Below are positions 35,921 through 62,635 of a stretch of DNA of 63,442 nucleotides, one piece after another. Within the stretch, counting starts at the first letter, position 1, and each line of letters starts with the position of its first letter. The stretch lies in IMG/VR virus record IMGVR_UViG_3300032241_001905, positions 1 through 63,442 of that record; one strand, written 5' to 3'. A model generated the notes under the pieces. It ran no database searches, was not told the origin of the DNA, and worked only from the letters and a program-made list of their open reading frames with translations. This DNA is from a virus. Position numbers and translations under genes: made by a program.

Positions 35921-37771
35921 ATGGATGTAACGCAAGAGATCCTTAGCGAGATTACTACGTACATGAAGTACGCTAAGTTTGTTCCCGCTTTAAACAGAAG
36001 AGAAACATGGCAAGAGTTAGTTACGAGAAATAAAGAAATGCATCAAGCAAAATTCCCGCAATTACAAAATGAAATTGAAGAAGCCTACAAATTGGTATAC
36101 GCTAAAAAAGTATTACCGTCGATGCGTTCATTACAGTTCGCAGGTAAGCCCATCGAGCTTAATAATTCTCGTATATTTAATTGTTCTTTTCTTCCTATTA
36201 ATGATTGGAGAGCATTCAGTGAAATAATGTTCCTATTATTATCAGGATGTGGAGTAGGATATAGTGTTCAAACACACCATGTAGAACAACTACATGAAAT
36301 AACAGTACCAACTAAACACAAACGTTATTTAGTAGGTGATAGTATTGAAGGATGGGCTGATGCCGTTAGAATGCTATGTAAAGCATATTTTACAGGTGGA
36401 GCATTACCAATATTCGATTTTAGAGACATTAGAGCTAAAGGCGCTCAGTTGATTACTGTAGGTGGTAAAGCACCTGGTCCTGAACCACTAAAAGAATGTT
36501 TATTTAATCTACAAAAGATATTTGAACGTAAACAAAACGGCGAGAAACTTACATCAGTAGAAGTACATGATATGGCTTGTCATATTGCAGATGCAGTATT
36601 ATCAGGTGGTATTAGAAGAGCAGCATTGATTTCCTTATTCGATTTAGATGATGAAGATATGTTGACTTGTAAATTCGGTAACTGGTGGGAAGAAAATCCA
36701 CAACGCGGCCGTGCAAATAACTCAGCAGTAGTATTACGCCATAAGATTGATGAAGAAGAATTCCTTAAACTATGGAAGAAAATTGAATTAAGTGGATCTG
36801 GAGAACCAGGCATCTACTTCAGCAACGATAAAGATTGGGGAACTAACCCATGTTGTGAAATCGCTTTGAAACCATTCCAATTCTGTAACTTATGTGAGGT
36901 GAATGTATCAAACATTGAATCGCAAGAAGATTTGAATGAACGCGTGCGTGTAGGAGCGTTTATAGGCACTTTACAGGCCGCATACACTGACTTCCATTAC
37001 CTAAGGGACATATGGCAGAAAACAACAGAGAAAGAAGCATTATTAGGTGTTGGTATGACAGGTATTGGATCTGGAGCTATTTTAGCTTATGATTTAAAGA
37101 AAGCAGCTGATTTAGCTAAAACAGAAAATGCTCGTGTTGCAGATATTATTGGTATTAACAAAGCAGCTCGTGTAACTACAGTTAAACCATCAGGTACTAG
37201 TTCATTAGTATTAGGAACATCAAGTGGTATTCACGCTTGGCATAATGACTTCTATATTAGAAGAATTAGAGTAGGTAAAAATGAAGCTATTTACAATTAC
37301 TTAGCTATCAATCATCCTGAATTAGTTGAAGATGATTTCTTCAAACCAACAATTCAAGCTGTAATTTCAGTACCACAAAAAGCTCCAGCTGGATCTATTT
37401 TAAGAAACGAAAACGTAATTGATATGTTAGAACGTGTTAAACGTTTCAACGTACAATGGGTTAAAAAAGGTCATAGAAAAGGTGCTAATACAAACAACGT
37501 ATCTGCTACAGTATCAATCAACGAAAACGAATGGGAACAAGTAGGTAATTGGATGTGGGAAAATAGAGATACATTCAACGGATTATCAGTATTACCTTAC
37601 TTTGGAGGTAGTTATACACAAGCTCCATTTGAAGATATTACTGAAGAACAATTCAATGAAATGGCTACTCATTTACATGGTATCGATCTATCACAAATTG
37701 TTGAATTTAGTGACGATACAGCATTGATGGATCAAGCAGCTTGTAGTGGAAATGCCTGCGAAATAGTGTAA
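35921..37771 (+). CDS. nrdJ: Class II (B12-dependent) ribonucleoside-triphosphate reductase
   Basis: A 616-residue protein. FNCSFLPINDWRAFSEIMFL and LLSGCGVGYSVQT are typical of monomeric adenosylcobalamin-dependent reductases (Lactobacillus RTPR type, 739 residues). NPCCEIALKPFQFC carries the thiyl-radical Cys311, Glu313 and redox partner Cys322; the other partner is Cys88. The C-terminal ACSGNACEIV has the Cys pair (608, 613) that takes electrons from thioredoxin. It makes dNTPs from NTPs without a radical-generating subunit. It needs cobalamin from host or medium. The partner thioredoxin is directly upstream. Confidence 0.9.
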   Translation: MDVTQEILSEITTYMKYAKFVPALNRRETWQELVTRNKEMHQAKFPQLQNEIEEAYKLVYAKKVLPSMRSLQFAGKPIELNNSRIFNCSFLPINDWRAFSEIMFLLLSGCGVGYSVQTHHVEQLHEITVPTKHKRYLVGDSIEGWADAVRMLCKAYFTGGALPIFDFRDIRAKGAQLITVGGKAPGPEPLKECLFNLQKIFERKQNGEKLTSVEVHDMACHIADAVLSGGIRRAALISLFDLDDEDMLTCKFGNWWEENPQRGRANNSAVVLRHKIDEEEFLKLWKKIELSGSGEPGIYFSNDKDWGTNPCCEIALKPFQFCNLCEVNVSNIESQEDLNERVRVGAFIGTLQAAYTDFHYLRDIWQKTTEKEALLGVGMTGIGSGAILAYDLKKAADLAKTENARVADIIGINKAARVTTVKPSGTSSLVLGTSSGIHAWHNDFYIRRIRVGKNEAIYNYLAINHPELVEDDFFKPTIQAVISVPQKAPAGSILRNENVIDMLERVKRFNVQWVKKGHRKGANTNNVSATVSINENEWEQVGNWMWENRDTFNGLSVLPYFGGSYTQAPFEDITEEQFNEMATHLHGIDLSQIVEFSDDTALMDQAACSGNACEIV

Positions 37772-37822: not shown

Positions 37823-38410
37823 ATGGCAGGAGTTATTTATAAAATTACCAATCCTAAAGATAAAATCTATATAGGATGTACTATTGATTTCAAACGAAGA
37901 CTATCAGAATATAGACGATTAAGTATGGCTGGACAGGTTAAATTGTATAACAGCTTAATTAAATATGGGTATGATAATCATAAGTTTGAAATTATAGAGG
38001 AATGTAGTGATGAAATATTACATGAACGTGAAATATACTTTATAAAACACTACAACTGTATAGAAGAAGGATTAAATATTAGATTAGGGAACAGAACAGG
38101 AGCATTAACTGAAGATACAAAACAAAAAATATCTGCAGCTTTAACAGGAAGAAAAGTAACATGGCATTCTAAAGGACCTAAAGGTTATAAGTATACTGAG
38201 GAACAAAAACAAAAATTGAGTAATGGTTTAAAAGAATATTATCAACATAATTCTGCTAAACCAAAACCTAAATTAGTACCACCACACATAGTAGAAGAAA
38301 TTAGATTAAAGTATAAAAATGGACATAAACGTTCATCTTTAAGTAGAGAATATAATGTAAGTTGGGGTACTATCAAAAATATAACAGACCATATAAATTC
38401 ATATGAGTAA
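37823..38410 (+). CDS. GIY-YIG homing endonuclease
   Basis: A 195-residue protein. The N-terminal catalytic domain begins AGVIYKITNPKDKIYIGCT (the GIY...YIG motif), with the conserved Arg in DFKRRLSEYRR and Glu in the ILHEREIYFI segment. Residues 100-145 hold NUMOD3-like DNA-binding repeats (TEDTKQKISAALTGRK, TEEQKQKLSNGLKEYY). The C-terminus (KYKNGHKRSSLSREYNVSWG) is a helix-turn-helix. It is free-standing, inserted between the reductase gene and the deazaguanine block, with its own leader. It overlaps the DUF5522 start by eight bases. Confidence 0.92.
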   Translation: MAGVIYKITNPKDKIYIGCTIDFKRRLSEYRRLSMAGQVKLYNSLIKYGYDNHKFEIIEECSDEILHEREIYFIKHYNCIEEGLNIRLGNRTGALTEDTKQKISAALTGRKVTWHSKGPKGYKYTEEQKQKLSNGLKEYYQHNSAKPKPKLVPPHIVEEIRLKYKNGHKRSSLSREYNVSWGTIKNITDHINSYE

Positions 38411-38621
38411 AGACTTAAAAAATAATGTTGATTATTATACAGAGGGAGAGCGCGTGATTTTCACTGCGCTCTTCCATATCAAGAGAGGCCATTGTTGTGG
38501 CAATGGATGCAGACACTGTCCTTATGAGCCAAAAAGTACCAAAGGAAGAGTGGTTTTATCAGAGAAAATACTTAAATTTACAAATAATGAATCTAGAACA
38601 ATTAGTAGAAGAAACGAATAA
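38403..38621 (+). CDS. DUF5522-like small Cys-rich protein
   Basis: A 72-residue protein. RVIFTALFHIKRGHCCGNGC, completed by RHCPYEP, carries four Cys and two His in the GxCCGNGCRHCPY signature of DUF5522, a family frequent in Bacteroidota chromosomes. It probably binds a metal or cluster; function is not known. Presence in a phage supports a Bacteroidota host. The end overlaps the next small gene by 35 bases. Confidence 0.8.
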   Translation: MSKDLKNNVDYYTEGERVIFTALFHIKRGHCCGNGCRHCPYEPKSTKGRVVLSEKILKFTNNESRTISRRNE

Positions 38622-38748
38622 TCTACAACAACTAAACATTGCTAGTTTAACTCCAGAACAACTAGAACAATTATTAACTAAAATAAGTTCTATTATTGAG
38701 ACAGGCGAAAAACAATTATCAGAAATAAAAATAGAGACAAATGAGTAA
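38587..38748 (+). CDS. Small acidic helical protein, 53 aa
   Basis: I use ATG 38587 (MNLEQLVEETNNLQQLNIAS), since a longer in-frame extension to 38497 lies wholly in the DUF5522 gene. The peptide is helical and acidic, ending EIKIETNE, with the last bases overlapping the QueD-like start. No family is recognised. It could be a small binding partner. Confidence 0.5.
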   Translation: MNLEQLVEETNNLQQLNIASLTPEQLEQLLTKISSIIETGEKQLSEIKIETNE

Positions 38749-39205
38749 GTTTCAATCAACTAAACTATTTGACGGTTATAGCTGTGTGTTCCGTCAATGG
38801 AAAGCAGAAGGCACACACTGCAGATTTCTTCATGGATATGGAATATCATTTAGAGTATGGTTTGAAGGCGAATTAGACGAACGCAATTGGGTTTGGGATT
38901 TTGGAGGTATGAAGCGTGCTAAAGGCAATATTGATGGTATGAATCCTAAAGAATGGATGGATTATATGTTTGATCATACATTATTAGTAGCAGAGGATGA
39001 TCCATATCTAACTGGTTTTAAAGCAATGGGGGATCATGGGTTATGTCAAACTAGAGTATTACCTGCTGTAGGTGCTGAACAATTTGCTAAGTATGTTTTT
39101 GAAAAAATAAATACATTTGTTCAAGAAGAAACTAATGGTAGAGTTAATGTTGTAAGAGTAGAATTTATGGAAAATAGTAAAAATACAGCTATATATGAAG
39201 GTTAG
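38741..39205 (+). CDS. queD: 6-carboxytetrahydropterin synthase-like protein (QueD family)
   Basis: A 154-residue protein. TKLFDGYSCVFRQWKAEGTH and the following CRFLHGYGISF align with the QueD start, where Cys lies four residues before HGH. VWDFGGMKRA, FDHTLLVAEDDP and VRVEFMENSKNTAIY match the DF, DH and Glu positions. Family role: 7,8-dihydroneopterin triphosphate to 6-carboxytetrahydropterin, step 2 toward preQ0. The usual zinc ligand HGH reads HGY and the first His is missing, so the metal site differs. I recall a bacterial subfamily with a similar GYSCxFRQW start. It sits in a block with FolE, QueE and QueC. Confidence 0.8.
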   Translation: MSKFQSTKLFDGYSCVFRQWKAEGTHCRFLHGYGISFRVWFEGELDERNWVWDFGGMKRAKGNIDGMNPKEWMDYMFDHTLLVAEDDPYLTGFKAMGDHGLCQTRVLPAVGAEQFAKYVFEKINTFVQEETNGRVNVVRVEFMENSKNTAIYEG

Positions 39206-39563
39206 TCATGAGTTCATTCCATATGAACAAGCATTAAAACTTAAGGAGTTAGGATTTGATGAACCATGCATTGCTATTGCTTTATGGGAAAATGATTTTT
39301 GCCTAGTTGGTGATGGTAAGGTTTGGAACAATTCAGATATAGACATCATCTATTTGCCACTCTATGAACAATCATTCAGATGGTTTAGAGAGAAACATGG
39401 TTTAGCTTGCTGGATTTACCCATCTCCACAAATAGGCGAAACTATTAAATGGTGTTATGATACAACAGACTTTAAAAAAATGAGTTTTACCCCACCTATT
39501 TTTGATACATACGAAGATGCCCAATTAGCTTGTCTTAAAAAATTAATTGAATGTTATATATAA
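39195..39563 (+). CDS. Conserved phage protein of unknown function, 122 aa
   Basis: It starts MKVSHEFIPYEQALKLKELG and continues FDEPCIAIALWENDFCLVG, a start often seen in small proteins of Bacteroidota phages and prophages (YEQALxLKELGFDEPC). FRWFREKHGLACWIYPSP and the end (FDTYEDAQLACLKKLIECYI) fit a small alpha/beta fold. The start overlaps QueD by 11 bases. It could be involved in the deazaguanine block only by position. Downstream there is a remnant of a homing endonuclease. Confidence 0.7.
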   Translation: MKVSHEFIPYEQALKLKELGFDEPCIAIALWENDFCLVGDGKVWNNSDIDIIYLPLYEQSFRWFREKHGLACWIYPSPQIGETIKWCYDTTDFKKMSFTPPIFDTYEDAQLACLKKLIECYI

Positions 39564-39640
39564 ATCATAAAAGTATAAACAACTGTGTTGTTGGTTTAGC
39601 TAAAACAGCAGGTGGGTTTATTTGGAAGTATAAAAATTAA
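39551..39640 (+). pseudogene. C-terminal remnant of a homing endonuclease
   Basis: In the gap before the DpdA-like gene, a 29-codon frame reads NHKSINNCVVGLAKTAGGFI followed by WKYKN and a stop. This is the usual C-terminal specificity unit (S.IS.CC.GK..TAGGFIWKYK) of GIY-YIG or HNH homing endonucleases. The intact gene at 41536 ends with a similar SAISECCSGKRQSAYGYIWK. The nuclease part is absent, so an element was inserted here and then deleted. Confidence 0.6.
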
Positions 39641-39656
39641 ATATTAACTTAATAGA

Positions 39657-40454
39657 ATGAAAATTTCACATGAAGTGCCTTTATGTTTTTTAAAGGAAAG
39701 TTTAAAATGGAATGACTACCAATATGTTCTTCCACATTTAATAGACCAATACCCTCAGTACAAAACCCATATGTTAGAGTACAGAGAAAAACCAGGTTCA
39801 TTTATAATATGTGATAATGGTCTTTTTGAGGGAGTAACTCATACTACTGAAGATCTAATTAGCAAAATTGAATTAATACAACCAGATGTGTTTATAGTTC
39901 CTGATGCTTGGAATGATTCAACTACAACACTTAGAAGTGCTAAGCATTGGATGATAAATTATAAGAAAAATTTACCTGAAGGAGTTGAGTTAATGGCTGT
40001 ATGTCAAGGTGAAGATATACTTGAATTAATAACTACATACCAAAATTTAGTAGATTTAGGATACACACACATTGCTTTTAACCATTCCAGCTGTGCTTAT
40101 TTAGAAATGAATCCTACATTTGCAGGAAGTAATCAGTTAAAAGCACAAATGTATGGTAGAATGGAGTTTATTAGAAAATTAGTTGAAAGAGATATAATTA
40201 GACCTACATTTTATCATCATTTACTAGGATGCTCTTTACCACAAGAGTTTATGTCTTACAAAGATTGGGACTTTATTAAATCAGTAGATACATCTAACCC
40301 AATTTTAGTTGGAGCAGAAGGAAAAAGATACACTAATGAAGGTATTGATTGGAAACCTAAAGAAAAATTAGAGCATTATTTTGAAAAAGATTTGAGTGGT
40401 CAAGTAGAAGATATTATATTTAATGTAAATAAATTTAAAAGTTATGTTCAATAA
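39657..40454 (+). CDS. dpdA: DpdA-like DNA 7-deazaguanine transglycosylase
   Basis: A 265-residue protein with a TGT-like TIM-barrel pattern: SFIICDNGLFEG (Asp53), FIVPDAW (Asp83), MAVCQGED (Gln117), TFYHHLLGCSLP (His187, Gly191) and KSVDTSNPILVG (Asp211). These parallel the base-recognition and nucleophile Asp residues of tRNA-guanine transglycosylases. No CxCxxC zinc site of tRNA enzymes is visible, as expected for the phage DpdA branch. Known role of that branch: exchange of guanine in DNA for a deazaguanine base. Neighbours queD, queC, queE and folE would supply the base. Product identity cannot be read from sequence. Confidence 0.75.
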   Translation: MKISHEVPLCFLKESLKWNDYQYVLPHLIDQYPQYKTHMLEYREKPGSFIICDNGLFEGVTHTTEDLISKIELIQPDVFIVPDAWNDSTTTLRSAKHWMINYKKNLPEGVELMAVCQGEDILELITTYQNLVDLGYTHIAFNHSSCAYLEMNPTFAGSNQLKAQMYGRMEFIRKLVERDIIRPTFYHHLLGCSLPQEFMSYKDWDFIKSVDTSNPILVGAEGKRYTNEGIDWKPKEKLEHYFEKDLSGQVEDIIFNVNKFKSYVQ

Positions 40455-40620
40455 TTATGAAGAATTTAAACAGCATGTTAATGATGAATGGGAAAGTGGT
40501 GCTATTAATGAATTAGAACAAGATGGTTTCCTAGTAATTGATACTGTAAATGAAGAAACAGGAGATATATTATATAGAATATTAACTGAAGAAGAATTTC
40601 AACGCTTGAATGAGAAGTAA
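40444..40620 (+). CDS. Small acidic protein, 58 aa
   Basis: The ATG at 40444 overlaps the end of the DpdA-like gene. FNNYEEFKQHVNDEWESGAI and VIDTVNEETGDILYRILTEE make a small alpha/beta unit with many Glu. It is followed by a 42-nt A-rich leader before queC. It resembles small phage proteins with a D(T/P)...TGEILYR ending, but no function is known. Confidence 0.6.
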   Translation: MFNNYEEFKQHVNDEWESGAINELEQDGFLVIDTVNEETGDILYRILTEEEFQRLNEK

Positions 40621-40662
40621 GCGTTTAATAAATAAATACTTTCTCAAAAAAATAAAAAACAA

Positions 40663-41493
40663 ATGTCAAAGAAAGCAGTTTTAAGTTTATCTGGTGGAAT
40701 GGACTCAAGTACATTATTACTCCACTTATTAGCAAATGGTTACGAAGTTACAGCTCTAGGCTTCGATTATGGTCAAAAACACAAAGTAGAATTAGAAAGA
40801 GCTAAATCGTTAGTTGAATACATCAACAGTCAGTTTGATAAAACAGACGGAACAGCCCCTTTAACTTACTCTAAAGTAAAGCATCAAATTATTAAATTAG
40901 ATGGTTTATCTCAGCTATTAAACTCAGCATTAGTAGAGGGTGGTAATGAACTTCCAGAGGGTCACTATGAACAATCTAATATGTCTTTATCGGTTGTTCA
41001 AAATCGTAACAAAATATTTAGTTCTATTATTCAAGCAGTAGCATTGTCTGTTGCTGAAAAAGAAAATACTGAAACTATTATTGCTATGGGGATTCATGCT
41101 GGCGATCACTTAATTTACAAAGATTGTAGACAAGAATTTCGTGATGCTGATTATCAAGCTTTTTTAGAAGGTAATGAGAATGGGTATTTAGTTACTTATT
41201 ATACACCCTATCTTAAAGTTAATAAGTTTGAAATTTTAGAAGATGGATTGAAATCATGTGAGAAACTGAGTTTAGATTTTGACGAAGTATATAAACGCAC
41301 AAGCACTTCCTACAAACCTTACCCATCAGGAAACAGTGATTACAAATCAGCTTCATCGGTTGAACGTGTAGAAGCATTCATAAAATTAGGTCGCCCAGAC
41401 CCAGTAATTTATGAAGATGAAAATGGTATAGCTTCTTGGGATACTGTAGTAACTCATGTTAAGCAAGTATTAGAAGATTTTCAATCATCTTAA
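40663..41493 (+). CDS. queC: 7-cyano-7-deazaguanine synthase-like protein (QueC)
   Basis: A 276-residue protein. AVLSLSGGMDSSTLLLHLL is the PP-loop ATP-binding motif, and ALGFDYGQKHKVELERA and VVQNRNKIFSSIIQAVAL are highly typical of QueC. Known reaction: CDG to preQ0 through ADG, using ATP and ammonia. The four C-terminal Cys that bind zinc in cellular QueC are absent: the aligned stretch (residues 213-235) has Ser at these places (TSTSY, SGNSDYKSASSVER). It is about 45 residues longer than E. coli QueC. A homing endonuclease gene follows. Confidence 0.9.
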   Translation: MSKKAVLSLSGGMDSSTLLLHLLANGYEVTALGFDYGQKHKVELERAKSLVEYINSQFDKTDGTAPLTYSKVKHQIIKLDGLSQLLNSALVEGGNELPEGHYEQSNMSLSVVQNRNKIFSSIIQAVALSVAEKENTETIIAMGIHAGDHLIYKDCRQEFRDADYQAFLEGNENGYLVTYYTPYLKVNKFEILEDGLKSCEKLSLDFDEVYKRTSTSYKPYPSGNSDYKSASSVERVEAFIKLGRPDPVIYEDENGIASWDTVVTHVKQVLEDFQSS

Positions 41494-41500
41494 ACTTTAT

Positions 41501-41510
41501 GATATTTATA
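41501..41510 (+). promoter_or_regulatory. Putative phage promoter element (GATATTTATA)
   Basis: In the 42-nt gap after queC, ending 25 nt before the GIY-YIG ATG. Another mobile endonuclease with its own copy of the element. Confidence 0.45.
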
Positions 41511-41535
41511 GTAGTACCACATAATACTCTATAAT

Positions 41536-42240
41536 ATGAAAGTTTATATATATTGCCTATTTGATGAAAATGATATTCCATTATATGTAGGTAAAACTAA
41601 AAATAATCTTACATTAAGAGAATATCAACATCAAAGAAGATTAAATAGATTAGTAAAGATATTTGAATTAGATTATGTAGAATCAAATAATTGGAAATTT
41701 TGGGAATCATATTGGATTGAACAATTTAAAACATGGGGATTTAATTTATTAAATCAAAATAAAGGTGGTGGTGGAGTTTCAAACCATACTAAAGAATCAT
41801 GTTTAAAAATGAAATCAACTATTAGACCTAACACTTCAATTAAATTAAAAGGGATTAAACGTCCTGATGTAAGTAAAAGATTTAGTGGGGTCAAATTATC
41901 AAAAGAAACTTGTGATAAAATTAGCAAAAGTAAAATAAATCATATTTGTTATAAAGACTCAAAAAGAACAGAAAAAATATTAGAATCTAATAAACATAAT
42001 TATGAATTAGGTTCTAATAGAAATAAAAAAATATCTTCTAAACTTTTAGGAAGAGAAGCAGAATGGATGAAACAGAGAAGTAAAAATATAATACAATACA
42101 CTAAACAAATGATTCTTATCAAAGAATGGACAAGTGCATCCGAGGCAGCATTATCTTTTAATAAACAACCATCAGCAATTTCAGAATGCTGTAGTGGTAA
42201 AAGACAATCAGCTTATGGTTATATTTGGAAATTCAAATAG
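41536..42240 (+). CDS. GIY-YIG homing endonuclease (second)
   Basis: A 234-residue protein. KVYIYCLFDENDIPLYVGKT is the GIY-YIG start in the form YIY...YVG, with Arg in LTLREYQHQRR and Glu in FWESYWIEQF. The middle has NUMOD3-like repeats (TKESCLKMKSTIRP, SKETCDKISKSK). The C-terminus (ASEAALSFNKQPSAISECCS, then AYGYIWKFK) is a specificity unit like the remnant at 39551. Only distantly related to the GIY-YIG gene at 37823. It is inserted between queC and a small HTH-like gene. Confidence 0.9.
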   Translation: MKVYIYCLFDENDIPLYVGKTKNNLTLREYQHQRRLNRLVKIFELDYVESNNWKFWESYWIEQFKTWGFNLLNQNKGGGGVSNHTKESCLKMKSTIRPNTSIKLKGIKRPDVSKRFSGVKLSKETCDKISKSKINHICYKDSKRTEKILESNKHNYELGSNRNKKISSKLLGREAEWMKQRSKNIIQYTKQMILIKEWTSASEAALSFNKQPSAISECCSGKRQSAYGYIWKFK

Positions 42241-42243
42241 AAG

Positions 42244-42274
42244 TTTATTTGGCAAAATAAAGATAGTATATTAA
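42244..42274 (+). promoter_or_regulatory. Probable host-type promoter of 42304 gene
   Basis: TTTA (42244-42247), 19-nt spacer and TATATTAA (42267-42274). The spacer holds AAATAAAGAT at the same distance from both boxes as in the promoter at 31169, which makes chance similarity less likely. Confidence 0.5.
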
Positions 42275-42303
42275 ATCATTGTAATCAAAAACCAAATATA
42301 GTC

Positions 42304-42540
42304 ATGAGTTATCAAACTAAAGTTCGTGCAAACAACTTAAACAAAACAGCAAAATTAGCATTTTACAAAGCTCGCAATCGTCAAGGCGATACAGCTCGTT
42401 TAGCTGAGGCTACAGGATTTACAACTCGTTTTGTAAATTATGTATTAGCTGATGAAAGAAATGTTAATGATGTATTAGCAAACGCGATGTACAATATTGC
42501 TCGTCGTAGAACTAAAAACAGTGAATTAGCAAAAGCCTAA
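42304..42540 (+). CDS. Small basic HTH-like protein, 78 aa
   Basis: SYQTKVRANNLNKTAKLAFY is a basic N-terminal helix. GDTARLAEATGFTTRFVNYV has the spacing of a helix-turn-helix (helix, GF turn, recognition helix), followed by an Arg-rich end (NIARRRTKNSELAKA). It could be a DNA-binding regulator. It is preceded by a host-type promoter and followed by the strongest terminator of the window, so it forms a separate one-gene unit. Function is inferred. Confidence 0.6.
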   Translation: MSYQTKVRANNLNKTAKLAFYKARNRQGDTARLAEATGFTTRFVNYVLADERNVNDVLANAMYNIARRRTKNSELAKA

Positions 42541-42557
42541 TTCTATACCCCAACCCT

Positions 42558-42586
42558 AAGATCCTGTCGAAAGGCAGGATCTTTTT
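42558..42586 (+). terminator. Rho-independent terminator
   Basis: AAGATCCTG (42558-42566) pairs exactly with CAGGATCTT (42575-42583), loop of eight bases, followed by T residues. It closes the single-gene unit at 42304. Confidence 0.85.
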
Positions 42587-42612
42587 CTTATCTTTAACAA
42601 AATAAAAAACAT

Positions 42613-42617
42613 GGAGG
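42613..42617 (+). promoter_or_regulatory. Rare strong Shine-Dalgarno site (GGAGG)
   Basis: GGAGG lies seven nt before ATG 42625. Almost no other gene in the window has such a site. The site is itself part of a six-codon frame (ATG 42611 to TGA) whose stop overlaps the start codon. Confidence 0.55.
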
Positions 42618-42624
42618 AAAAACT

Positions 42625-42873
42625 ATGAAGTGTTTAAAAAGTTCAAAAACAGGAGAAATTATCAGAGTATCTGATGAACAAGCTAACAAAGCTACAAGTG
42701 AATGGAAATTTGTACCTAAATCAGAATGGAAAGCTTTACGTGCACCAGTCTCAGAAAAGCAATTAGTAGAAACAGAAGCTAAAGCTGAAACAATTAGCAA
42801 GAAAGCTCTACGTCGTTCTAAGTTAAAAGAAAAACAGCGTCCTGCTGAATCAACTGATAAAATTTTAAAGTAA
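42625..42873 (+). CDS. Small basic protein with SD site, 82 aa
   Basis: It begins MKCLKSSKTGEIIRVSDEQA, and TSEWKFVPKSEWKALR follows. The C-terminal half is charged (SKKALRRSKLKEKQRPAEST) and could bind nucleic acid. No family is recognised. The strong Shine-Dalgarno site is unusual for this host group, in which SD use is rare and mostly seen for special genes. The stop overlaps the next start (TAATGA). Confidence 0.6.
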   Translation: MKCLKSSKTGEIIRVSDEQANKATSEWKFVPKSEWKALRAPVSEKQLVETEAKAETISKKALRRSKLKEKQRPAESTDKILK

Positions 42874-43067
42874 TGACTCAAGAAAAAATTAACACAATCT
42901 TTCAGAGTTCTTTAGGACAGCAATTAACTGAAATATTTGTAACTCCTGATGATGGGTGTTTTATAAGACTGAGGGAAGCTCAGAACCACTGTCGTGATGT
43001 TTTAAAACAAGGTGATGATGCTAGTAAGTATGAGATTACAATATGGTATAACGAAAATGAATTTTAA
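42873..43067 (+). CDS. Small unknown protein, 64 aa
   Basis: TQEKINTIFQSSLGQQLTEI, then TPDDGCFIRLREAQNHCRDV and a C-terminal DASKYEITIWYNENEF. It appears to be an alpha/beta unit with two Cys. It is coupled to the upstream gene by start/stop overlap and lies two bases before queE. No function can be assigned; adjacency to queE is the only clue. Confidence 0.6.
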   Translation: MTQEKINTIFQSSLGQQLTEIFVTPDDGCFIRLREAQNHCRDVLKQGDDASKYEITIWYNENEF

Positions 43068-43069
43068 TT

Positions 43070-43924
43070 ATGAGTAAAATAGATCCAAATAAATTACTTA
43101 TCTCATCTGACTTTTATACAGTACAGGGAGAAGGTATAAGTAGCGGTATTCCCGCTTACTTCGTTCGTTTAGGTATTTGTAACCTAACCTGCGGAATGTC
43201 TCGTGCATTTACTAACCAATTAGCTAAAGAGCAAAAATTAGAAGACGGAGAAATTTTCGTTGGTGATTTACATGCTGAAGGTAAGGCTACTTGGACTTGT
43301 GATTCTACAAGTCAATGGTTATGGAGAGGCGAAGATAAAGAATTTCAATATTTAATCAATCGTTGGAAAGAAGAAGGTGTATATGAAGATATCAAGAGTG
43401 GTTTAGTTCATATTATTTGGACTGGTGGTGAACCAACAATTAAAGGTCATCAAGAAGCAATTGTTAATTTCTGGAAATATTTTGAAAATAAAGTTAGTTG
43501 GTTAGACCATTATGATGATGAGTTTCTGGAGGCATTCAATGAAATAGAAACTAACGGTACTAACTATATTGAAGATGATTTATTTCATATGTTAGATCAA
43601 ATCAACTGCTCACCTAAATTAACTAATTCAGGTATGACAGAAAAACAACGTATTGTTCCTAAAGCAATTGAGCGTATTATGGAACATTCAAACTATCAAT
43701 TTAAGTTCGTTATCAGCACAGAAGATGATGTTAAGGAAATATTCCGCGACTTTGTTGAACCATTTAATATACCGCTTAAAAACGTTGTTTGTATGCCTGG
43801 TTTAGATGATGCTGCTAATTTTGAAGAACGTACTCGATTTGTAATGGAGATGGCTAAAAAATATAGATTTAGAGGATTAACGCGTTTGCACATTGCAGCG
43901 TGGAATAAAACATTAAACGTATAA
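43070..43924 (+). CDS. queE: 7-carboxy-7-deazaguanine synthase-like protein (QueE)
   Basis: A 284-residue protein. FYTVQGEGISSGIPAYFVRL is the classic QueE start, and HIIWTGGEPTIKG is the radical SAM GGEP motif. The cluster Cys are GICNLTCG (Cys37, Cys41) and WTCDST (Cys77). Normally the third Cys is three residues after the second; here 35 residues intervene, an insertion between Cys 2 and 3. Known reaction: CPH4 to CDG. ETNGTNYIEDD and CSPKLTNSG are the usual substrate and Mg regions. It stands between small unknown genes and two tiny membrane peptides. Confidence 0.88.
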   Translation: MSKIDPNKLLISSDFYTVQGEGISSGIPAYFVRLGICNLTCGMSRAFTNQLAKEQKLEDGEIFVGDLHAEGKATWTCDSTSQWLWRGEDKEFQYLINRWKEEGVYEDIKSGLVHIIWTGGEPTIKGHQEAIVNFWKYFENKVSWLDHYDDEFLEAFNEIETNGTNYIEDDLFHMLDQINCSPKLTNSGMTEKQRIVPKAIERIMEHSNYQFKFVISTEDDVKEIFRDFVEPFNIPLKNVVCMPGLDDAANFEERTRFVMEMAKKYRFRGLTRLHIAAWNKTLNV

Positions 43925-43927
43925 TAT

Positions 43928-44050
43928 ATGTTAGAAAATACACTTTTAGTACTTATAGTGGTTATAATGCCATTATGCTTAATATTTGCAATTAGATATT
44001 TTAAAAAATGGGATAAAGAAACATTTATAGAAGATGAAAGTGAAAAATAA
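43928..44050 (+). CDS. Small single-span membrane protein, 40 aa
   Basis: LENTLLVLIVVIMPLCLIFA is a membrane-spanning helix, followed by a basic then acidic tail (IRYFKKWDKETFIEDESEK). It lies three bases after queE. No holin or antiholin family is recognised, though the size and shape are compatible with a small inner-membrane effector. The end overlaps the next tiny frame. Confidence 0.5.
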   Translation: MLENTLLVLIVVIMPLCLIFAIRYFKKWDKETFIEDESEK

Positions 44051-44126
44051 AGATATAATATTGGTAATAATATCTACTATTTTAGGATTCTTCTTAGCAT
44101 CTTTAATGGTAAGATTTGGACTTTAA
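44034..44126 (+). CDS. Tiny membrane peptide, 30 aa
   Basis: Start ATG 44034 lies inside the preceding small gene. KVKNKDIILVIISTILGFFL and ASLMVRFGL form a positively charged start plus one membrane span. Two overlapping membrane peptides in a row suggest real genes rather than noise, but support is only by sequence shape. Confidence 0.4.
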   Translation: MKVKNKDIILVIISTILGFFLASLMVRFGL

Positions 44127-44172
44127 TTGAAATTTTATTAAATTTAACAATAAAATAGAAATAAACTAATAA

Positions 44173-44901
44173 ATGGAAAACAAACGCAGACAAACAACAA
44201 ATCTTGAGACACTAGAATTAGCAAAAGCAGGTTTTGCAAATGGTATATCCCAACAACTAAAATCACTAATTGAAGATGGTTATCATCGTTCATTAACTGA
44301 TGATGAAAAATGGGGTATAGTAAAAAATGCAGAAGAAGCATATGGTAAATTTCTAGATGCTTTAGGTGTAGATTGGAGAAATGACCCAAACAGTATGGAA
44401 ACACCTCGTCGTGTAGCTAAAAAACTAGTATTCGATATGTGGGCTGGTAGATATAATTTACCTACTGATATTACTTCATTCCCTAGTGATGGATATAATG
44501 GTATAATTTTAGAAAAAGATATACCTGTGGTGAGTATGTGCTCACATCATCATGAAACTATACTAGGTAAAGTACATATTGCATACGTGCCTAGCAAAGA
44601 TGGAAAAGTTATTGGCTTGAGTAAACTAAATAGAATAGTTGAACACTTTGCTAGACGAGGAGCAATCCAAGAACAGCTTACGATGGCCATTCATAATGCT
44701 TTGGATAAAATAATAGAAGGCAACGAAGGTATCATGGTAATGATGCAAGCTACTCATAACTGTGTATCATGCAGAGGTATTAAACACATGGGAGCCAGTA
44801 TGATTACTAGTGAAGTATCTGGTGTATTTGCTGATCATACCAAAACTGCTAAACAAGAGGTAATGAGCATGATAGGGTATAAAATGGATGCTTATAGATA
44901 A
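44173..44901 (+). CDS. folE: GTP cyclohydrolase I (FolE)
   Basis: A 242-residue protein. VVSMCSHHHETILGKVHIAY holds zinc ligands Cys123 and His126, and MQATHNCVSCRGIKHMG the third ligand Cys197. VIGLSKLNRIVEHFARR and QEQLTMAIHNAL are standard. Known reaction: GTP to 7,8-dihydroneopterin triphosphate, the first step of both folate and 7-deazaguanine routes. With QueD, QueE, QueC and the DpdA-like gene, the deazaguanine route is the likely use. Length is near the family norm (about 222). Confidence 0.95.
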   Translation: MENKRRQTTNLETLELAKAGFANGISQQLKSLIEDGYHRSLTDDEKWGIVKNAEEAYGKFLDALGVDWRNDPNSMETPRRVAKKLVFDMWAGRYNLPTDITSFPSDGYNGIILEKDIPVVSMCSHHHETILGKVHIAYVPSKDGKVIGLSKLNRIVEHFARRGAIQEQLTMAIHNALDKIIEGNEGIMVMMQATHNCVSCRGIKHMGASMITSEVSGVFADHTKTAKQEVMSMIGYKMDAYR

Positions 44902-56291: not shown

Positions 56292-57782
56292 ATGAAAGAA
56301 GGTTATATTCCGCGTGAAAAACGCAAAAAGATTTTATTATTATGTGATGATATCAGAATGACATCTGGTATATCAACAATGGCTAGAGAAATAGTTATTG
56401 GTACAGCTCACCGATTTAATTGGGTGAATGTTGGTGGTGCTATTAACCATCCTGACCAAGGTAAACGATTTGATATCAATGATGACACTAGCAAGAATGC
56501 AGGTATTCCTGATGCTAGTGTTACATTATATCCTATAAATGGATATGGTGATCCTATGTTTTTAAATCAAATGATTGCACTGGAAAAACCAGATGCATTA
56601 ATGATGTTTACTGATCCAAGATATTGGATTTGGTTATTTCAAATGGAACAAGAAATTAGGAAGAAAATGCCTATTATCTATTTAAACATTTGGGATGATT
56701 TACCTTATCCAATGTATAATAAACCATACTATGAGTCTTGTGACGCATTGTTAGCAATCAGTAAACAAACTGAAAATATTAATAGAGCTGTATTAGGCCC
56801 AGAATTAACAGCTGAAAAAGTAATTAAATACGTACCCCATGGGATTAATGACAAAATTTTCTTCCCAATTACTACAGAACAACCTGAGTATTTGGCTTTA
56901 CAAGAATTTAAAAATAACTTATACAGAGGAAAATCATATGATTTTGCTTTATTATATAATGCGCGTAACATCCGTCGTAAATCTGTTCCTGATTTAATGC
57001 TAGCATGGAAGTTATTTATTGATGAACTTCCAGTAGAAAAAGCAAATAAATGCGTTTTAGTAATGCATACTCAAATGTCAGACGAAAATGGTACTGACTT
57101 AAGAGCAGTAAGTGAAATGTTATTTGGTAATAATCCTCAATACAATGTTGTATTTGATGAAGGAAGGTATCCGGCTAATGTAATGAACTTATTGTACAAT
57201 GCTACAGATGCAACTGCATTAATTAGTAGCAATGAAGGTTGGGGATTATCATTAACAGAAGCAATGATGTGTGGTAAACCAATTATATCTACTGTAACAG
57301 GTGGTATGCAAGATCAAATGCGTTTTGAAGACGAAAATGGTGAATGGATTAAGTTTACGGAAGAATTTGGTTCAAATCATAGAGGTAAATATAAGAAACA
57401 TGGTAAATGGGCTTTCCCAATATTCCCATCTAATTTATCAATTGTAGGATCTATTCCAACACCTTATATATTTGATGATAGAGCTCAACCTGAAGATGTT
57501 GCTGATCAAATTATGGAAATATATTCTTTAAAAACAAATCAAGTTGAAGAATATGGATCTCATACTAGAGGTATTGAAACATATGATGAAATATGTAAAG
57601 CAGCCTATGAATGGGTTACTTCAGAAGAATCAATGATGACAGCAGAAGCAATGTCTAAAAATGTAATTGATGGAATTGAAGCAACATTTGATAAATGGGA
57701 ACCAAGACATAAATTTGAATTAATCCAGGTAACAACACCTGATCAACCAAAACATTACGTAAAACACGTTATCGCAAAATAA
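56292..57782 (+). CDS. Glycosyltransferase (GT-B, family 1/4-like), 496 aa
   Basis: KKILLLCDDIRMTSGISTMA is a GT-B N-terminal start. The C-terminal half has FALLYNARNIRRKSVPDLML and LISSNEGWGLSLTEAMMCGK, the E-x(7)-E motif region that binds nucleotide sugar (SNEGWGLSLTEAM), then PIISTVTGGMQDQM. There is no signal peptide. It starts nine bases after the RHH-like gene and ends one base before the next glycosyltransferase, so a shared transcript is likely. Donor and acceptor unknown. Confidence 0.88.
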   Translation: MKEGYIPREKRKKILLLCDDIRMTSGISTMAREIVIGTAHRFNWVNVGGAINHPDQGKRFDINDDTSKNAGIPDASVTLYPINGYGDPMFLNQMIALEKPDALMMFTDPRYWIWLFQMEQEIRKKMPIIYLNIWDDLPYPMYNKPYYESCDALLAISKQTENINRAVLGPELTAEKVIKYVPHGINDKIFFPITTEQPEYLALQEFKNNLYRGKSYDFALLYNARNIRRKSVPDLMLAWKLFIDELPVEKANKCVLVMHTQMSDENGTDLRAVSEMLFGNNPQYNVVFDEGRYPANVMNLLYNATDATALISSNEGWGLSLTEAMMCGKPIISTVTGGMQDQMRFEDENGEWIKFTEEFGSNHRGKYKKHGKWAFPIFPSNLSIVGSIPTPYIFDDRAQPEDVADQIMEIYSLKTNQVEEYGSHTRGIETYDEICKAAYEWVTSEESMMTAEAMSKNVIDGIEATFDKWEPRHKFELIQVTTPDQPKHYVKHVIAK

Positions 57783-57783
57783 T

Positions 57784-59079
57784 ATGAAACAATTATTAGT
57801 TATAAGTTGCCCCATTGACACCTTTAGTGGATATGGTGCACGCTCAAGAGATATAGTTAAATCTTTATTAACATCAGATAGATTTGATGTAAAAATTGTA
57901 CCTCAAAGATGGGGTTCTACACCATTTGGATTTTTAGATGAAAATAATTCTGATGATAAAAAAATCATAGATTGTTATTTATTAGAACCTCAGTTACCTA
58001 AACAACCAGATATTTGGATTCAAGTAACAGTACCTAATGAGTTCCAACCTGTTGGAAAATATAACATTGGTATTACTGCTGGTATTGAAACTACAGTAGC
58101 AGATGCTACTTGGATAGATGGTATTAATAGGATGAATTTAACATTAGTATCTTCAGAACATGCTAAAAAAGTATTTGAACAATCTACATTCCAAGAAAGA
58201 AATCAACAAGGACAACCTGTAAGAGAAATCAAACTAGAAAAACCAATTGAGGTATTATTTGAAGGAGTAAATACAAATATCTATAAAAAGATAAATACAT
58301 TAACTACTGATGTAAAAGATGTACTAGATAGTATAGATGAAGATTTTAATTTCTTATATGTTGGTCATTGGTTACAAGGTGACTTAGGACAAGATAGAAA
58401 AGATACAGGTATGTTAGTTAAAACATTCCTTGAAACATTTAGAGGTAAAGGAAAGAAACCAGGTTTAATACTTAAAACAACTTGTGGTACTTACTCTATT
58501 ATGGATAGAGAAACAGTATTAGATAAAATTGAAGGTATTAAAAACTTAGTTGGCGGTACAGATTTACCAAACATTTATTTGTTACATGGTGAGTTAAGCG
58601 ATGAAGAAGTAAATGAATTATATAACCACCCTAAAGTAAAAGCACACGTTACATTTACTAAAGGTGAAGGATATGGTCGCCCATTAATTGAAGCATCAGT
58701 AAGCCAAAAACCAGTAATTGCTCCTAATTGGAGTGGCCATACAGATTTCCTTGATGCTAACATGTCAATCTTATTACCAGGTCAAGTAACTCAAATTCAT
58801 CCATCAGCAGTAGTAAAAAATATGTTATTAGCTGAAAGTGGATGGTTTACAGTTGATTATAAAAAAGCATCTGAAACATTAGTAGATGTTTATAAAAATA
58901 ATAAAAAGTATATTGATGGGGCAAAGAAACAATCATACCGTTCACGTACTGAATTTAGTTTAGATAAAATGACTGAAAAGTTATTAGCTATAATAGATGA
59001 GAAAGTACCTAAACAAGTAGCTCTTAAATTACCTACATTAAAGAAAGTTGAATTACCAAAGCTTAAAATAGCAAAATAA
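57784..59079 (+). CDS. Glycosyltransferase family 4-like, 431 aa
   Basis: CPIDTFSGYGARSRDIVKSL is the glycine-rich N-terminal loop of GT-B enzymes. FLYVGHWLQGDLGQDRKDT begins the C-terminal Rossmann domain, and VTFTKGEGYGRPLIEASVSQ holds the E-x(7)-E type donor-binding segment, followed by KPVIAPNWSGHTDFL. The C-terminal tail is Lys/Leu-rich (KLPTLKKVELPKLK), unusual and possibly membrane-peripheral. The stop overlaps a tiny frame (TAATG). Confidence 0.9.
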   Translation: MKQLLVISCPIDTFSGYGARSRDIVKSLLTSDRFDVKIVPQRWGSTPFGFLDENNSDDKKIIDCYLLEPQLPKQPDIWIQVTVPNEFQPVGKYNIGITAGIETTVADATWIDGINRMNLTLVSSEHAKKVFEQSTFQERNQQGQPVREIKLEKPIEVLFEGVNTNIYKKINTLTTDVKDVLDSIDEDFNFLYVGHWLQGDLGQDRKDTGMLVKTFLETFRGKGKKPGLILKTTCGTYSIMDRETVLDKIEGIKNLVGGTDLPNIYLLHGELSDEEVNELYNHPKVKAHVTFTKGEGYGRPLIEASVSQKPVIAPNWSGHTDFLDANMSILLPGQVTQIHPSAVVKNMLLAESGWFTVDYKKASETLVDVYKNNKKYIDGAKKQSYRSRTEFSLDKMTEKLLAIIDEKVPKQVALKLPTLKKVELPKLKIAK

Positions 59080-59159
59080 TGAATAATACAGGCGCTGTAA
59101 TATTTACATTTCAAAATAATACCGGAAACTATGAAAGAATCACTTATAATATGTCCTAG
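59079..59159 (+). pseudogene. 26-codon frame, possible remnant
   Basis: NNTGAVIFTFQNNTGNYERI looks like the first strand and helix of a T4-like phage transferase start, but a stop follows. It overlaps the zinc-ribbon gene start. It may be a coupling leader peptide or the leftover of a deleted gene. Support is weak. Confidence 0.25.
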
Positions 59160-59523
59160 ATGCTCTTCAAATGCATGTAGCGAAGTATCAAATGACAAAT
59201 TAACTGTTTGGAATTGCTTCGGATGTGGATTTACTTCTAATTCTACAATGATAGATGAAAATTCAGCAGCTACTGAGGAAGTATTACCTAATCTGTATGT
59301 CGCTTTAAAGTTTAAAGATGATAAAGGATATAATTGGTACCCAACAGCTGTAACATTAGAAGATAAATCAATGTTGTTTGCTGAAGGTAAATCAACTGAA
59401 GAATGGAACTGGTCAGCAGTACAAGCTAAAGGTGGTAAACCTGATATGACAACTAAAAAAGAATTTGTTGAACGCGACTTTATGGAAGCGTTAGATTATA
59501 TTGGTTATTTTAAACAACAATAA
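59131..59523 (+). CDS. Zinc-ribbon protein, 130 aa
   Basis: The N-terminus KESLIICPRCSSNACSEVSN and WNCFGCGFTSN give CxxC and CxxC for one zinc. The rest (LPNLYVALKFKDDKGYNWYP, then a C-terminal FVERDFMEALDYIGYFKQ) is a second small domain with conserved Trp/Tyr. This two-part protein is commonly found in marine T4-like phages, without known function. It lies between glycosyltransferase genes. Confidence 0.7.
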   Translation: MKESLIICPRCSSNACSEVSNDKLTVWNCFGCGFTSNSTMIDENSAATEEVLPNLYVALKFKDDKGYNWYPTAVTLEDKSMLFAEGKSTEEWNWSAVQAKGGKPDMTTKKEFVERDFMEALDYIGYFKQQ

Positions 59524-59524
59524 C

Positions 59525-60130
59525 ATGCCATCAATTAGTTATGCAATTACAGCTCATAATGAGCACGTTGAATTAGATCGTTTATTAGATCAATTAACTT
59601 CGTGGATTAGTGATGAAGATGAAATAGTAGTACAAATGGATATTACTGCTACTGATGAAGTTAAAGCAGTAGTTTATAAGCATAAATTAATGAGTTACTT
59701 CCATCCGTTAAATAACGATTTTGCTACTTTTAAAAATAATCTTAAAAGTTTATGTACTAAAGATTATATATTTCAAATTGATGCTGATGAATACTTATCA
59801 AACGAATTGCTAACATGGCTTCCAGATATATTATTTGATAATAATACTGTTGAAATGTTTTCATTACCACGTATTAATACAGTTGAAGGACTAACTGAAC
59901 AACACATTAAACAATGGGGTTGGAATGTAAATGAAGACGGCTGGGTTAACTATCCTGATTATCAAAATCGTATATTTAAAAATAAACCTGAAATCCATTG
60001 GGTGAATAAAGTACATGAAAAAATAATTGGTGCTAGAAGCATAGCATCCCTTCCTCCAGGATTTGATTTAGTACATCCTAAAACAATAGAAAGACAAGAA
60101 CGCCAAAATAACTACTATAATACTATATGA
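59525..60130 (+). CDS. Family 2 glycosyltransferase
   Basis: I take ATG 59525 (MPSISYAITAHNEHVELDRL), since the longer frame to 59501 overlaps the zinc-ribbon gene. The start ISYAITAHNE and YIFQIDADEYLS (DxD) are hallmarks of GT2. GWVNYPDYQNRIFKNKPEIH and VHEKI are typical of the small phage/bacterial GT2 subgroup. 201 residues, a minimal GT-A enzyme. It overlaps the FkbM gene by four bases (ATGA). Confidence 0.9.
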   Translation: MPSISYAITAHNEHVELDRLLDQLTSWISDEDEIVVQMDITATDEVKAVVYKHKLMSYFHPLNNDFATFKNNLKSLCTKDYIFQIDADEYLSNELLTWLPDILFDNNTVEMFSLPRINTVEGLTEQHIKQWGWNVNEDGWVNYPDYQNRIFKNKPEIHWVNKVHEKIIGARSIASLPPGFDLVHPKTIERQERQNNYYNTI

Positions 60131-60849
60131 TATCAGAAATATACAAAAACAACGATGGTACGTTTATAGTATTTCCTAACGATGCTATTGCTAATCATCT
60201 TAAAACAATTGGTACATGGGAACCTCATTTTAAAATAGTTGTAGATAACTTTATTAACGAGGATGATGTAGTAATAGATGCCGGTGCTAATTTCGGATAT
60301 AATTCCGTTATCATGGGTAAAAAAATAGGATCGGATGGTACCTTGATTTCATTTGAACCTCAAAGAATAATTTACCAACAAATGTGCGGTAACTTAATCT
60401 TAAATAACATATATAACGGACATCCTATTAATGCCGCTGTTGGACAAGAAGAATCAACTGCTAATTTAGTTCCAGTTTATTATGAAGCAGGTTGGGTTAA
60501 TATTGGAGATACATCTATTGGTGATGGAGGTGAAGAGATAAGAGTATGTAAAATAGATGATATAATTGATACTAGAGTAAACTTTATTAAAATAGATGTT
60601 CAAGGATTTGAATTAGATGCTTTAAAAGGAGCTAAAAATATTCTTACTAATTATCAACCTGATATCTTCATTGAAGTAGAACCTCATCAATTAGCTAAAT
60701 TTAATACTACAGACGAGGATTTATTTAATTATATAAAATCATTTGGATATGATATATATAAAATTAATAATGATTATCCTTGTGATCACATTTGTACTAC
60801 TAAAGATGTAAGTCATTTAACTGAAATATTAAAATTAGTTAAAATCTAA
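60127..60849 (+). CDS. FkbM-family methyltransferase
   Basis: A 240-residue protein. VVIDAGANFGYNSVIMG is the SAM-binding motif I, TLISFEPQRIIYQQM the motif II region with Glu, and VNFIKIDVQGFELDALKGAK the signature KIDVxGxE of FkbM. SAM-dependent O-methylation of a sugar is the usual role in glycan loci. Coupled to the neighbouring transferases by overlaps at both ends. The sugar position is unknown. Confidence 0.93.
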   Translation: MISEIYKNNDGTFIVFPNDAIANHLKTIGTWEPHFKIVVDNFINEDDVVIDAGANFGYNSVIMGKKIGSDGTLISFEPQRIIYQQMCGNLILNNIYNGHPINAAVGQEESTANLVPVYYEAGWVNIGDTSIGDGGEEIRVCKIDDIIDTRVNFIKIDVQGFELDALKGAKNILTNYQPDIFIEVEPHQLAKFNTTDEDLFNYIKSFGYDIYKINNDYPCDHICTTKDVSHLTEILKLVKI

Positions 60850-62632: not shown

Positions 62633-62635
62633 AAA

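Follow-up and report, generated by a model that had tools for sequence, protein, structure and literature searches.

Does the stretch of viral DNA considered here specify its own route to a deazaguanine base that replaces guanine in phage DNA and, if so, which base would that be? The window, i.e., the whole 63,442-nucleotide stretch analysed (IMG/VR virus record IMGVR_UViG_3300032241_001905, positions 1 to 63,442), is a fragment of a genome whose relatives reach up to 183 kb. A tail-sheath match points to a contractile-tailed phage, and matches to a phage DNA polymerase, a clamp loader, GroEL, and Hsp20 are also present. Between positions 38741 and 44901, the window carries queD, a dpdA-like gene, queC, queE, and folE, all complete, on the + strand, and at the coordinates given in a preliminary description of the sequence. 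We conclude that the five genes very probably form a phage-encoded 7-deazaguanine DNA-modification cassette.

A conserved, mostly collinear cassette of five genes

The five genes and the matches of their products are as follows (aa, amino acids; SAM, S-adenosylmethionine):

38741-39205, + strand: QueD-like 6-carboxytetrahydropterin synthase, 154 aa (Pfam PTPS 1.7e-15, above cut-off; phrog_2389 2.3e-39)
39657-40454, + strand: DpdA-like predicted DNA-guanine transglycosylase, 265 aa, CP220/immuto group (AlphaFold2 model, fold match, invariant residues)
40663-41493, + strand: QueC-like PF06508 enzyme, 276 aa (PF06508 1.1e-34)
43070-43924, + strand: QueE-like radical SAM 7-carboxy-7-deazaguanine synthase, 284 aa (phrog_2076 1.4e-37; no Pfam match)
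44173-44901, + strand: FolE GTP cyclohydrolase I, 242 aa (PF01227 7.9e-45, 152.9 bits vs a cut-off of 27)

QueD, QueC, and FolE are thus backed by both Pfam and PHROGs, and QueE by PHROGs alone; NCBIfam gave matches for four of the five proteins, none above the curated cut-off of its best model. FolE also contains CSHH and HxCxxxRG, corresponding to the metal-site motifs of this enzyme family (GCYH-IA), CxHH and HxCxxxRG. At this place in the cassette, two kinds of FolE are found, one 70-76% identical to that of the window in about ten relatives and the other about 40-45% identical in most, a pattern that looks as if the gene has been displaced more than once.

Scanning IMG/VR for relatives of the dpdA-like protein yielded 91, the best 80 of which were counted. 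All five genes are present in 44 of these 80, and in every one of the 44 they follow the order queD, dpdA, queC, queE, folE on one strand, with the starts of the first and last matches a median of 4.7 kb apart. This recurrence argues that the genes are not chance open reading frames (ORFs). The remaining 36 relatives comprise 26 short stretches around dpdA and 10 longer ones without one or more matches, namely queD in L027, L066, and L078 (the last also without queE) and folE in L019, L029, L031, L035, L062, L079, and L080 (our locus labels). By the median ratio of nonsynonymous to synonymous substitution rates (dN/dS), the five genes are under purifying selection: the medians, from pairs with dS of 0.2 to 1 only and for FolE from 18 sequences only, are 0.14 for QueD, 0.24 for DpdA, 0.25 for QueC, 0.19 for QueE, and 0.26 for FolE, with single pairs at 0.4 to 1.05. 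Contrary to the preliminary description, in which the genes were scattered, they make up a conserved cassette, collinear for the most part and carrying insertions. Systems of this kind are known: the same set is present in isolates of Flavobacterium phage immuto, and T4-like Bacteroidetes virus genomes with que genes are already in the literature (PMC7198788).

A DpdA-like protein of the CP220/immuto group

The protein that would exchange the base is the one without a named family. Searches with the 265-aa product of 39657-40454 gave no Pfam or NCBIfam match, no sequence match in the PDB, and in PHROGs only phrog_19058 (function unknown) and one weak unknown family. A PDB sequence search with its profile returned two weak, unrelated matches only. 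PF01702, the tRNA-guanine transglycosylase (TGT) family, is not matched in the window; across the window and 13 relatives together, no match exceeds the cut-off and one is weak (E 0.0093). We regard the missing family match as a matter of library coverage, not of mechanism, and file the protein as DpdA-like on fold and residues. An AlphaFold2 model from the window plus 51 relatives (predicted local distance difference test, pLDDT, 95.5; predicted template modelling score, pTM, 0.92) matched a TGT (E 1.5e-7) and DpdA 7UI4 (E 1.9e-7) in Foldseek, and VIA-align 2 placed the DNA preQ0 insertase DpdA (7UI4) first, with Z 17.8 and a root-mean-square deviation of 3.2 A over 230 aligned residues (preQ0, 7-cyano-7-deazaguanine). 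In a viral structure library, the first match was an unnamed Caudovirales protein (template modelling score, TM, 0.93) and the second a 259-aa protein of Cellulophaga phage phiST (TM 0.84). The model thus places the protein in a DpdA/TGT-type barrel fold; an unrelated TIM-barrel family, the outcome that the preliminary description had set against its own proposal, did not emerge, the best matches being DpdA and TGTs instead.

All 52 DpdA-like sequences share seven invariant residues (H5, E6, D53, D83, Q117, H188, and D211). DpdA and TGT enzymes use two catalytic aspartates, one as general acid/base and one as nucleophile. In a profile comparison with six cellular TGTs (hhalign), VPDAW aligned on CFDEC, AVCQG on GIIQG, and HHLLGCSLPQEF on RYLMGVGKPQDL, and D211 falls on the second Asp of VDMFDCV, with a formal probability of only 0.1%. 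We take the positions aligned in this way to be the TGT catalytic positions, and presumably D53 pairs, by motif, with the Asp of DSGGFQ. Together, the model and the residues suggest a DNA-guanine transglycosylase, a divergent DpdA.

Searched with a clade profile (8-sequence set including the window), the immuto protein scored 3e-57 and gp056 of Campylobacter phage CP220 (Firehammervirus) 2e-49; Youna2, CC_R7, and phiST followed at 4e-17 to 3e-15, CAjan DpdA scored only 0.0085, and phi38:2 0.34. By these values, the protein groups with CP220, not with CAjan. CP220 gp056 is 33% identical to the window protein over 99% of the latter, and QueC, QueD, and GTP cyclohydrolase are annotated in CP220, but its genes are dispersed over some 55 kb; the QueC of CP220, unlike that of the window, has its zinc cysteines, and it is altered at YxQxHxxE and YPDC. 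In CP220, the gene for gp056 (L082, 10001-10777) is flanked by genes for an HD-domain/AAA ATPase and a thymidylate kinase. In CP220 and CPt10 DNA, 100% of deoxyguanosine is reported to be replaced by dADG, the deoxynucleoside of 7-amido-7-deazaguanine (ADG) (PMC8306585, citing Crippen 2019), while Hutinet 2019 put CP220-type phages in a group without DpdA and considered DpdA-independent insertion (PMC6884629). The grouping with gp056 makes very extensive or complete replacement of guanine plausible for the window phage as well. A DpdA3 subfamily with complete guanine replacement was reportedly named by Cui et al. in 2023 (NAR); we expect that CP220 gp056, and with it the window protein, would belong to it.

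Closest as a whole is Flavobacterium phage vB_FspM_immuto (MW353175), annotated with QueD, QueE, FolE, DpdA, QueC, and QueF. Its identity to the window is 58% for QueC, 69% for QueD, 61% for FolE, and 34% for DpdA, and it shares the zinc-free QueC and the FRQW/HGY form of QueD. In contrast to the window and 14 relatives, where neither family is matched above cut-off, a QueF is annotated in immuto and a formyltransferase gene is found close to dpdA; moreover, some 10 kb separate the immuto queC from the queD that follows it. Escherichia phage CAjan has the same minimal set as the window (DpdA, FolE, QueD, QueC, and QueE) but differs in a DpdA barely detectable with the clade profile, a QueC with zinc site, and a QueE with CX3CX2C. 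Known relatives of the DpdA-like protein number 91 stretches in IMG/VR vs 20 deposited phage records (some duplicates, and found by different search methods), suggesting that the subfamily is common in uncultured phages.

Several observations weigh against a modification cassette of this kind. Being a fragment, the window might miss a tailoring gene located beyond its ends, and our analysis turned up no isolate of the phage. The gene order is not universal, queD following dpdA in 6 of the 74 loci that show both. By the VIA-align 2 rule, TGTs (Z about 17) are tied with DpdA 7UI4, and the low formal probability of the hhalign comparison stands although the motifs align. Two of the usual metal-binding histidines are absent from the window QueD. 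The cluster motif of QueE is unusual: its second and third cysteines are separated by 35 residues, in place of the CX3CX2C usual in this radical SAM enzyme. Finally, the four zinc cysteines of QueC are replaced by S, D, S, S, so that the zinc motif is missing, and the same protein is substituted at 7 positions with at least 97% conservation, VPxRN (P113Q) and YPDC (P153K) each containing one of these changes.

The departures in QueD and QueE recur elsewhere. The window QueD has CRFLHGY, which keeps the signature cysteine but not the CxxxHGH given as the PTPS-I signature (PMC5041015), and in the alignment Phe stands at the first metal-histidine position. The HGY and Phe form is common to immuto, phiST, phi38:2, and Cysteiniphilum, and the Pfam PTPS match is above cut-off; we file the protein as QueD-like. 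The product of 43070-43924 is similarly filed, from its sequence, as QueE-like: CX3C-X35-C is found in 55 of 61 QueE sequences, and the last spacing is X22 in HVTV-1, X6 in phi38:2, and X2 in CAjan. Since HVTV-1 DNA has been measured to contain dPreQ1 (the deoxynucleoside of 7-aminomethyl-7-deazaguanine; PMC6884629), a spaced motif occurs in a working system. The QueE of L079-L081, where queD comes after dpdA, has only 7 residues at this place, resembled by the 8-residue spacing of a Cysteiniphilum QueE encoded beside a zinc-free queC.

QueC proteins without zinc cysteines

According to PMC13329287, QueC is a zinc enzyme that bears the motif C(x)8CxxCxxC and proceeds via ADG, its zinc being called required. 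Because the motif region of the window protein (40663-41493) has the same length as in zinc-bearing relatives such as L147, the loss of the cysteines can be read place by place. In a set of 82 QueC sequences longer than 200 aa (3 shorter ones left out), S, D, S, S stand at the zinc places in 74, including the window and immuto, i.e., in 74 of the 74 clade sequences that reach the motif, and CCCC in 7 outgroup phage QueCs (CAjan, CP220, CP21, CC_R7, phi38:2, Youna2, and HVTV-1). The one left, from L050 (8833-9492), is 221 aa long and ends before the motif inside a 16.8-kb stretch of a long contig; a frameshift, an early stop, or an assembly error may be responsible.

The window protein keeps SGGMDS and YGQKHKVE (the SGGxDS loop and YxQxHxxE), which are conserved in 13 aligned clade members, and has VQNRN for VPxRN and YKDC for YPDC, with R, N, Y, D, and C retained. 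In the clade consensus, SGGMDS, YGQKHxxE, VPNRN, and YPDC are retained, together with the lysine and the tyrosine after the first lost cysteine. The AlphaFold2 model matched QueC 3BL5 with Z 17.8, QatC and Cap9 being tied within 1. We file the protein as a QueC-like PF06508 enzyme, one that probably works as QueC does. Departures at positions at least 97% conserved number 0 each in the DpdA, QueD, and QueE proteins of the window and 5 in its FolE; the seven in QueC may mean reduced activity.

The zinc-free form is not confined to phages. Among the best 80 of 547 QueC loci in a scan of bacterial and archaeal genome assemblies, 75 have no zinc cysteine, 1 has one, and 4 have all, counts that give no estimate of frequency because the loci were chosen by similarity to the zinc-free form. 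The sources of these 80 loci are Planctomycetes (Pirellulaceae and others), Verrucomicrobiota, archaea (Poseidoniales and relatives), Cysteiniphilum, and Thiotrichales. Several of the loci (L108, L110, L114, L117, and L124) also have a dpdA-like match and look like phage contigs binned with hosts. In a tree of 96 QueC sequences, 87 rows, all without the full zinc motif, form one group (96/93) with the zinc-bearing sequences outside, on long branches and with unsettled bootstrap. In 10 of the 10 cellular genomes searched that carry the zinc-free form (some draft), it is the only full-length PF06508 match, one genome having a second, partial match; TGT is present in 10 of the 10 and QueF in 8. 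A sole full-length QueC in such company should reach preQ0, and the simplest reading of these sequences is that the zinc-free protein makes preQ0 without that zinc. We found no description of a zinc-free QueC clade in the literature searched, which comprised few papers of subscription journals and included passages of PMC13329287.

Predicted base, rival explanations and genomic setting

On paper, the gene set is complete for a route from GTP to a deazaguanine together with a base-exchange enzyme, as the preliminary description had proposed. We infer the following chemistry. FolE would open GTP and QueD would make carboxytetrahydropterin, which QueE would rearrange to 7-carboxy-7-deazaguanine (CDG); two ATP-dependent reactions of QueC would take CDG to ADG and then to preQ0. 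Working by way of an aspartate-linked intermediate, the DpdA-like enzyme would next cleave guanine from phage DNA at its glycosidic bond and put the deazaguanine base in its place. By analogy with known phages (PMC6884629), DNA modified in this way would be shielded from host restriction enzymes.

Which base would be inserted depends on what follows QueC. We looked for tailoring genes in the window and in 14 relatives whose lengths range from 119 to 183 kb. The QueF profile PF14489 gave 17 matches in these 15 records, none above cut-off. By coordinates, 13 of the 17, that of the window included, lie inside folE; 4 were not placed there: one in G003 and two in G011, both of these records being stretches without a folE match, and a last one in G013, where the frame is 30 aa long and contains a stop. 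The formyltransferase profile PF00551 had no match in any of the 15. These results support the view of the preliminary description that no queF or later tailoring gene is seen in the window and that preQ0 or an earlier intermediate is the predicted base. A set of FolE, QueD, QueE, QueC, and DpdA goes with dPreQ0, the deoxynucleoside of preQ0, in CAjan and Rosebush, and in CAjan this base was both predicted and measured (PMC6884629). With no QueF above cut-off and no formyltransferase, dPreQ0 is the likeliest base, and on balance we expect it; dADG comes second, at perhaps a one-in-several prospect, and another or a further tailored base is a little less probable still.

The case for dADG assumes that the modification cassette stops early, its zinc-free QueC making only ADG. 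The QueC route does pass through ADG (PMC13329287), CP220 is reported with dADG (PMC8306585), and P113Q and P153K lie in the window QueC. Against this, the QueC of CP220 keeps all four zinc cysteines and departs instead at YxQxHxxE and YPDC, two motifs that are intact in the window clade, except for the window's own YKDC (and VQNRN), and the zinc-free enzyme serves as sole full-length QueC beside TGT and mostly QueF in the cellular genomes described above. We therefore reject, as the main reading, a stop at ADG caused by zinc loss.

Two further explanations dispense with base exchange in DNA, and we consider both improbable. The phage might raise preQ0 for queuosine in host tRNA, the TGT-like protein acting on tRNA: FolE, QueD, QueE, and QueC feed that pathway too, and the structural tie between TGTs and DpdA would suit it. 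Against it speak the lack of any PF01702 match above cut-off in the window and 13 relatives, and the grouping of the DpdA-like protein both with gp056 of CP220, a phage with reported deazaguanine DNA, and with the immuto protein annotated as DpdA. Alternatively, the TGT-like or another phage enzyme might make a deazaguanine deoxynucleoside triphosphate (dNTP) that the polymerase incorporates, a route formerly proposed for Campylobacter phages (PMC6884629). Such a route would make the complete substitution reported for CP220 easier to imagine, and a thymidylate kinase gene adjoins the dpdA-like gene in CP220 and CC_R7 and lies three genes downstream in immuto. No thymidylate kinase match above cut-off occurs in the window or the 14 relatives, the weak match of the window falling in the clamp-loader gene, and the fold is that of DpdA and TGT, enzymes that act on polymers. 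Crippen et al. (2019) reportedly saw no dADG phosphates after infection. Enzymatic exchange in phage DNA by the five-gene cassette remains our preferred explanation.

The cassette is interrupted and preceded by other genes. Conservation of the small ORFs was counted as protein matches among 84 loci:

37823-38410: one of two GIY-YIG genes, with a NUMOD3 motif; flanked by the ribonucleotide reductase and DUF5522 genes, a short way upstream of the cassette
39195-39563, + strand: small ORF, 122 aa (phrog_25117, unknown, 7.2e-7), matched in only 2 of 84 loci
40444-40620, + strand: small ORF, 58 aa, matched in 1 of 84
41536-42240, + strand: GIY-YIG homing-endonuclease-like gene, directly 3' of queC (PF01541 2.1e-4, TIGR01453 4.4e-7, both under cut-off, PF01541 just under its curated cut-off)
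42304-42540, + strand: small conserved ORF, 78 aa, matched in 54 of 84
42625-42873, + strand: small ORF, 82 aa, matched in 33 of 84
42873-43067, + strand: small ORF, 64 aa, no PHROGs family
43928-44050, + strand: small ORF, 40 aa

Two homing endonuclease traces and at least seven small unknown genes had been announced among the five genes. There are indeed two GIY-YIG genes, but both are ORFs rather than traces and one lies upstream of the interval, and the ORFs of at least 40 aa between the five genes number six. A locus labelled L075 also has a GIY-YIG gene directly 3' of queC (2631-3326), 58% identical to that of the window. Its QueC is the sister of the window's in the QueC tree (100/100), shares T110S and W172E with it, is also changed at K108 and P153, and, with 9 departures at conserved positions, is the only relative above the window's 7; among 83 DpdA proteins ordered by their similarity to that of the window, the one from L075 comes only 74th. 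Since the two queC genes are sisters with a GIY-YIG gene in the same place and the dpdA genes are not close, these sequences suggest that queC and the endonuclease gene travelled together, in what looks like intron-less homing with co-conversion of queC.

Upstream of queD, 38403-38621 encodes a cysteine-rich small DUF5522 protein (PF17653 1.2e-17; matched in 66 of 84 loci), and 35921-37771 a ribonucleotide reductase of the adenosylcobalamin-dependent triphosphate type (TIGR02505 2.3e-80, below its cut-off). At the window end, 56292-63397 has glycosyltransferase, methyltransferase, and aminotransferase matches like those of a surface-sugar cluster. No Rfam match and no tRNA was found in the window, and repeats at 37.7-45.1 kb are limited to imperfect two-copy pairs in AT-rich sequence, taken as chance.

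With a relative confidently modelled, CP220 gp056 and other proteins annotated as hypothetical can be linked to the DNA-guanine transglycosylase fold. Two parts deserve the attention of specialists: the zinc-free QueC clade and the possible near-complete replacement of guanine. Tentatively, widespread uncultured phages with genomes up to about the size of T4 might carry preQ0 in place of most or all of their guanine, made through a zinc-independent QueC that they share with Planctomycetes, Poseidoniales, and Fastidiosibacteraceae. If so, QueC could dispense with a zinc site that is regarded as required, and if the zinc-free enzyme still makes preQ0, the stated zinc requirement of QueC would not be general.

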